Part shown: positions 2,236 to 3,095 of the stretch, piece after piece
Numbering within the stretch: position 1 is the stretch's first letter
Layout: the number at the start of each line of letters is the position of its first letter
Assembly: GCA_035541455.1 (NCBI GenBank)
Contig: DATKNH010000007.1
Location: forward strand, 1 to 53,586
Source of the DNA: Syntrophorhabdales bacterium
Lineage (GTDB): Bacteria > Desulfobacterota > Syntrophorhabdia > Syntrophorhabdales > WCHB1-27
Direction of reading: 5' to 3'
DNA length: 53,586 bases
Notes under the pieces: generated by a model
What the model was told of the DNA's origin: nothing
Seen by the model: the letters and a program-made list of their open reading frames with translations, nothing else
The model's database searches: none
Made by a program: the position numbers and the translations under genes

Positions 2236-2457
2236 CTACTTCTTCTTGCCGGACCCGGGTCCCTGGATGCCGGACCCGATCTTGGCCAACTCCTGCTGCA
2301 CCTCTTGCCACATGTGGCCATGTAACGTAAGTGTAAGCTTGCAAAAGGGGCAGGTGAGTGAAGCTCCTTCCGTGAGAGCCTCGATCGGGTGTTCAGTCTT
2401 GCGACCGCAGATGGGGCACGTAAAGGGTAAGGTCTTGTGCGTATTCGGTTTATTCAA
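2236..2457 (-). CDS. Small zinc-ribbon protein
   Basis: A 73-residue protein with two CPxC knuckles, CPIC near residue 15 and CPFC near residue 37, which together make a four-cysteine zinc ribbon. A helical segment and a Gly/Lys-rich tail ending in GSGKKK follow. The only plausible start is TTG at 2455-2457, preceded by a GAGGGAG ribosome-binding site inside the end of the upstream gene. The two genes overlap by 8 nt, so translation is probably coupled to the DsbA/FrnE-type selenoprotein. Function is unknown. The coupling suggests a metal-binding or thiol-redox partner of the oxidoreductase, but that is inference. Confidence 0.7.
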   Translation of the reverse strand: MNKPNTHKTLPFTCPICGRKTEHPIEALTEGASLTCPFCKLTLTLHGHMWQEVQQELAKIGSGIQGPGSGKKK

Positions 2458-3076
2458 GGTTCTCCCTCACGAATTTTTCCATCACTTTGTAGGGCTGAGC
2501 GCCGGTGACCCTGTTTCTTCCCACTACAAAGGTCGGGACAGCCGTGATACCCATCTCTCTTGCTCGCGCCCAGTCATCGTCAACAGCAAATTGATAGGTT
2601 CTCAACAGAAGGGCTTTCCTGGCTGCCTCCCCTGAAAGTCCAAGGCCCTCGGCAATCTTGACCAGCTCATCCAGTTTTCCTATGTTTACGCCGTCGACGA
2701 AGTAGGCCTTGAAGACAGCCCGGTGGAAGGCCTCACCGACTCCCTGCGTCTCAGCCCACTTTGCCAGTTCCTGGGCGTGACGGGTGTTGTAGGTCTTGGT
2801 GCGTTCGCCGAGAGGCAGGCCGAGCTCCGCCGCCGCTTCTTTCAGCCGTGCCTGTACCTTGTTTATGTCTATATGAGCGCCCTTGAAGAGCTCGGTCAGC
2901 GCCAGACCTTCTTCGGGAATTTCAGGATGGAGCGGGAAAGCTACCCACTTTGTTACGATGTTGAACTTCTTCCGCAGCTCATCAATACGCACGGTACTGA
3001 AGTAGCACCAGGGTCACCCAAAGTCAGAGAATATTTCCAGGACTTCAGTCGTCACGTGTAATTCATTCACAGCCAT
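2450..3076 (-). CDS. DsbA/FrnE-family thiol oxidoreductase, probable selenoprotein (Sec at codon 21)
   Basis: Thioredoxin-fold protein of the DsbA/FrnE (2-hydroxychromene-2-carboxylate isomerase-like) family. From the ATG at 3074-3076, with SD GGGAGGA just upstream, the frame reads 20 codons to FSDFG, then UGA at 3014-3016, then PWCYFSTVRIDEL and on without interruption to TAA at 2450. In this family the segment is FSDxxCPWCYF, so the UGA stands exactly at the first cysteine of CPWC and gives UPWC. The family cis-proline motif is intact at GITAVPTFVV, as is the helical insertion between the two halves. Total length is 208 residues including Sec, normal for the family. A simple gene caller would start it at the GTG at 2992 and lose the active site. 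No signal peptide is seen, so it is probably cytoplasmic. A nonsense mutation or sequencing error is possible but would have to hit precisely the redox cysteine in an otherwise intact gene. Confidence 0.82.
2965..3016 (-). promoter_or_regulatory. Candidate bacterial SECIS element after the UGA
   Basis: Bacterial Sec insertion needs a stem-loop within the coding sequence just 3' of UGA. Two mutually exclusive hand folds are possible. One is a 6-bp stem (GGUGCU with AGUACC, one G-U pair, loop ACUUC) at 2993-3009. The other is a longer two-part stem, ACUUC with GAAGU outside and CCGUG with UGCGG inside, whose apical loop lies about 25-37 nt after the UGA and contains G and GU. The second places the loop in the range usual for bSECIS. 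No energy was computed, so this is a candidate only. Confidence 0.35.
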
Positions 3077-3095
3077 TCCTCCCACTCCGGCGCTC

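Follow-up and report, generated by a model that had tools for sequence, protein, structure and literature searches.

A FrnE-type oxidoreductase gene of a Syntrophorhabdales bacterium with a probable selenocysteine codon in its U-P-W-C active site

Does an in-frame UGA codon in the genome of a Syntrophorhabdales bacterium end a gene, or does it encode selenocysteine (Sec) in the active site of a redox enzyme? The codon is found at positions 3014-3016 on the minus strand of a 53,586-nt stretch of DNA (the window, which here means this whole stretch). A preliminary description, made from the sequence alone, had placed the UGA where the first cysteine of a CPWC motif is expected in a DsbA/FrnE-type oxidoreductase and had proposed a selenoprotein. 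We put the probability of the following reading at about 0.93: the product of the gene is a FrnE-type thiol oxidoreductase of the cytoplasm, DsbA-like in fold, with SECIS-directed Sec at codon 21, and Sec21-Pro-Trp-Cys24 is its active pair. The features that this reading involves are listed here.

2450..3076, minus strand: predicted gene of a selenoprotein oxidoreductase of the DsbA/FrnE type; its length is 208 codons if ATG 3076 is the start or 206 if GTG 3070 is, with the TAA stop at 2450-2452
3014..3016, minus strand: UGA, predicted Sec21, which opens the U-P-W-C active site
3005..3007, minus strand: Cys24, second active-site residue and sole Cys of the window protein; invariant in the UPWC alignment
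2982..3000, minus strand: SECIS hairpin; 7-bp stem (3000-2994 with 2988-2982) and 5-nt loop CGUGC (2993-2989)
2534..2536, minus strand: Pro181 in an AVPT motif, predicted cis-proline facing the active site; invariant in 45 UPWC sequences, the cis state being that expected from the thioredoxin fold
3078..3082, minus strand: GGAGG, the ribosome-binding site; its distance is 1 nt to ATG 3076 and 7 nt to GTG 3070
2236..2457, minus strand: downstream ORF, YnfU-family zinc-ribbon protein (Pfam/NCBIfam YnfU match), TTG start

When TGA is read as U, the minus strand of 2450-3076 gives a 208-residue translation in which codon 21 is the only internal TGA (EIFSDFG-U-PWCYFSTVRID) and which ends at a normal TAA stop. 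The Pfam DSBA domain (PF01323) spans residues 13-202 of this translation (112 bits, cut-off 25.6), implying that the sequences on either side of the UGA belong to one family. The replacement of the first Cys of CPWC, the intact family sequence on both sides and the normal length, all claimed in the preliminary description, are thereby confirmed. It had also foreseen that gene callers begin the protein at 2992 and lose the active site, and the standard-caller ORF is indeed 2450-2992, a 180-aa protein starting with GTG. Across the window, a loose redox-context filter is passed by 65 TGA codons, of which only that at 3014-3016 unites the two halves of a recognisable family when judged by eye. Rfam gives zero matches in the window.

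The upstream ATG had been credited with a good Shine-Dalgarno sequence. The GGAGG is present, but its spacing (7 nt to GTG 3070, 1 nt to ATG 3076) makes GTG 3070 the more likely start as far as the sequence can tell, a change that would shift the N terminus by two codons and affect nothing else. At the other end, the YnfU ORF starts, with TTG, before the selenoprotein gene has finished; this overlap may mean that both are translated together. Among 20 relatives compared, no conserved neighbour genes, the YnfU ORF included, are found around the homologues.

By sequence, the window protein is closest among solved structures to Deinococcus radiodurans FrnE (phmmer 1.9e-24) and SCO1869. The AlphaFold model of the window protein (mean pLDDT 95.2, pTM 0.90) has FrnE 5xwh as its best PDB match (Foldseek TM 0.87, E 7.5e-15), and its TM against the FrnE structures overall is 0.86-0.87, with an identity of about 33%. 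The FrnE assignment proposed earlier is therefore right by both sequence and fold. F16, D18, U21, P22, W23, C24, Y25, R99, E103, W169, and P181 are among the residues invariant across the 45 UPWC proteins. No signal peptide is seen by inspection (the N terminus is VNELHVTTEVLEIF, and the first beta strand begins at residue 12), which suggests on inspection that the protein is cytoplasmic, unlike the periplasmic DsbA. By homology, its function would be that of a cytoplasmic disulfide reductase or isomerase acting through a Se-S intermediate. GST-kappa and HCCA isomerase have the same DsbA-like fold with its helical insert (TM about 0.7-0.77), so a Sec-containing enzyme of one of these types, not a disulfide reductase or isomerase, has to be considered. 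To our knowledge, however, GST-kappa and HCCA isomerase have no CXXC pair. The U-P-W-C motif is invariant, and it is FrnE disulfide oxidoreductases, with their CPWC, that come closest both in structure and in sequence. An enzyme of the GST-kappa or HCCA type is accordingly improbable, while it survives better than any other alternative.

Homologues were searched for at several levels. Besides the window's own copy, a class-wide search of 46 genomes gives two copies, each with one TGA. A search of 395 genomes of the phylum gives matches in 79, and 71 homologous copies were read for their state at window codon 21. TGA is found in 59 of the 71 (45 UPWC, 12 UPFC, and 2 UPYC) and TGC or TGT, giving CPFC or CPWC, in the remaining 12, a ratio that is not valid for the whole FrnE family because the query was of the Sec type and close relatives only were retained. 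The UGA copies come from 59 genomes in 30 families. UGA at random places among the homologues would have spoken against Sec according to the preliminary description; the UGA is instead at the same codon. A scan for named relatives gives a single short match, in Gordonia, and tblastn at E 1e-5 on that locus gives none. A plasmid search yields zero homologues.

Copies are patchy within the class. They are found in only 3 of the 46 class genomes, and none was found in the nearest relatives, G044 and G043, which are of the same genus and family (75-79% complete). Transfer or loss is perhaps the cause.

A maximum-likelihood tree groups the UPWC proteins (47 rows, support 94/95) and places the UPFC proteins in a second group together with most of the Cys forms. 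The Sec/Cys label requires at least six changes on this tree. Two CPFC proteins of one genus (L062 and L065) are nested in the UPWC clade beside a UPWC protein with support of 100/98, and they are best read, from the tree, as a Sec-to-Cys replacement. Their genomes (G418 and G080, respectively) retain selA and tRNA-Sec; replacement by Cys here is without loss of the machinery. Another CPFC protein (L071 of genome G078) lies inside the mostly Sec UPFC group. In this genome selA, full-length selB, and tRNA-Sec are not found over the cut-off, as expected if Sec was replaced by Cys with loss of the Sec trait.

The bacterial SECIS model, as laid out in a 2026 review, has a stem of 4-16 bp, a loop of 3-9 nt with a G within its first two positions, a spacing of 16-37 nt, and a minimum free energy of at most -7.5 (PMC13188914). 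In the window, with the U of the UGA as base 0, the stem joins bases 16-22 to bases 28-34; it begins 13 nt and the loop 20 nt after the UGA, and the energy is -10.4 kcal/mol with flanks. All the listed values of the model accommodate this hairpin. Note that its single-sequence fold energy is unremarkable (z -0.78) and that its support is comparative. Across 57 distinct Sec sequences, the stem pair cells are 94.5% paired (21-51% in slid-partner controls), both sides have changed in five of the seven stem pairs, and the covariation score is 0.481 (0.193 in shuffles). In the Cys homologues (n=12), the same columns are 50% paired, which is the shuffle level. When codons are redrawn synonymously with each protein held fixed, Sec genes form 391 of 413 stem pairs against 258 +/- 7 expected, and Cys genes form 42 against 44 +/- 3. 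Relatedness inflates the size of the figures, but Sec genes differ clearly from Cys genes. The SECIS that the preliminary description had proposed to look for downstream of the UGA thus fits the bacterial model and covaries in Sec genes.

These data bear on whether the UGA is a real stop, in which case the gene would be a pseudogene or translation would restart at GTG 2992 and yield a protein without the active site. Gene callers do report that 180-aa ORF. One genome (G237, listed as 100% complete) also shows that at least one copy may go undecoded: it has a UPWC gene with UGA (L064, on contig C37) and a SECIS-like stem, with selA, full-length selB, and tRNA-Sec giving no match over the cut-off. 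Either a binning error or an undecoded orphan is possible for this copy. Against a stop, the identical UGA codon is found in 59 homologues whose protein is conserved to either side of it, the remaining homologues have Cys there, and compensatory changes keep the SECIS stem. A restart would also leave the conserved EIFSD-U-PWC, upstream of 2992, unexplained. A true stop is thus very unlikely.

The genome of the host (3.9 Mb, 173 contigs, 97% complete) has the genes for making and inserting Sec. selA scores 578.6 bits, tRNA-Sec (anticodon TCA) scores 71 bits, two selB are over the cut-off, and so is selD, whose matched segment has one TGA in frame, at residue 10 (KAAGUAAK), the position where Sec-type SelD carries Sec. 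A genome lacking this machinery was another finding that the preliminary description had named as speaking against Sec, and all four genes are present. With the conserved UGA codon and a covarying SECIS that Cys homologues lack, its Sec interpretation is well supported. selA is over the cut-off in 58 of the 59 genomes carrying a UGA copy (the window's own included), a co-occurrence that argues only weakly for Sec since 355 of the 395 phylum genomes (90%) carry selA anyway. The two full-length selB (L001 on contig C116 and L002 on contig C102) are 89% identical. Because C102 is a contig of only 5.2 kb, the second copy is likely from a contaminating close relative, a real duplication in the host genome being the less likely source.

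An in-frame UGA by itself names no amino acid, and decoding as another residue (e.g., Trp or Cys) by a suppressor or an altered code has to be weighed against Sec. The genome, however, encodes tRNA-Sec with the anticodon TCA and the full Sec pathway, its SelD likewise has an in-frame UGA, and the hairpin after codon 21 belongs to the type that SelB targets. Where homologues differ at codon 21, they carry Cys. Decoding as another amino acid is thus about as unlikely as a real stop. A sequencing or assembly error (TGC or TGT misread as TGA) has a negligible chance even in a draft genome, being implausible because homologues in 58 other genomes carry the same TGA and since a covarying SECIS would then be unexpected. 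A pseudogene, an assembly error, and an altered genetic code were each considered and rejected on the conservation data.

For the FrnE-type selenoprotein, the following cycle can be proposed. SelB and tRNA-Sec would insert Sec at UGA codon 21, directed by the SECIS hairpin. Disulfides in substrates, either proteins or low-molecular-weight compounds, are the probable target of Sec21. Cys24 would then resolve the mixed selenenylsulfide to form an internal Se-S bond. Since Cys24 is the sole other thiol and a C-terminal CX4C pair is absent, a partner outside the protein would have to reduce this bond.

How does this protein compare with known ones? D. radiodurans FrnE (DR_0659; PDB 5cnw, 5co3, 5coh, 5cp1, and 5xwh) has the same fold (TM 0.87, 33% identity), with CPWC in place of UPWC, i.e., Cys where the window protein has Sec. 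It has isomerase and insulin-reduction activity, and its C-terminal CX4C pair helps regenerate it (PMC8945050). Many FrnE proteins have this regenerating pair, but it is found in none of the 45 UPWC proteins. It is also absent from FrnE of D. maricopensis and S. roseofulvus (PMC8945050), indicating that CX4C is not strictly defining for FrnE.

Sec-containing DsbA-like proteins have been reported several times. From the Sargasso Sea, nine such sequences (COG2761 / pfam01323, UxxC) were described in 2005 (PMC1088965). In 2006, Sec DsbA-like proteins were listed in the Deltaproteobacteria Anaeromyxobacter and Desulfovibrio desulfuricans and in Desulfotomaculum (PMC1794560). The GOS data gave 63 sequences of "DsbA 1" in 2008 (PMC2398784), and the 2026 review has a "DsbA-like form 1" (NIP15863.1; PMC13188914). 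These proteins resemble the window protein in belonging to the DsbA family, in having Sec first in UxxC, and in having the SECIS right after the UGA; the published lists are tied to the UPWC clade by family, motif, and COG. We take COG2761 to be the FrnE family. The preliminary description was correct that Sec-containing thioredoxin-fold proteins are known, and it left open whether this subfamily had been described. The 2005 account already contains this kind of selenoprotein, as a COG2761 DsbA-like UxxC protein (PMC1088965), and the gene adds a new member to it. In the accessible portions of the 2005, 2008, and 2026 accounts (PMC1088965, PMC2398784, and PMC13188914), the split into UPWC and UPFC and the near-absence of Cys members of the UPWC clade are not found. 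A literature search on FrnE together with selenocysteine found no paper on the protein.

Another Sec-containing thioredoxin-fold family with UxxC is the Rcas_1661 thioredoxin-like selenolipoprotein (DsbG-like) of NCBIfam (NF041057). This model gives 29.5 bits to the window protein against a cut-off of 190, and only the C-terminal part matches. Members of that family are lipoproteins, whereas the window protein has no signal peptide. No NCBIfam model reaches its cut-off on the protein.

Knowledge of selenoproteins is in principle unchanged by this finding. What is added is a broad, almost purely Sec UPWC clade that lacks CX4C, has no conserved gene neighbours, and is out of reach of the NCBIfam models. 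Tentatively, and with the odds somewhat against it, the UPWC proteins may make up a distinct FrnE subfamily in the phylum, one that is almost obligately Sec, that uses a selenenylsulfide cycle needing an outside reductant and that, being outside the NCBIfam models, is likely truncated in annotation. Because all 45 UPWC copies carry the UGA, standard callers mis-annotate these genes with a protein that starts past the active site, and a curated family model would recover them. Judging from sequence comparison, the apparent stop at this locus would code for the 21st amino acid, conserved at the active site of a disulfide enzyme of the cytoplasm. A FrnE branch with Sec in nearly all its members would be well suited to the question of why some anaerobes retain selenium at a disulfide-exchange site where related lineages use Cys.
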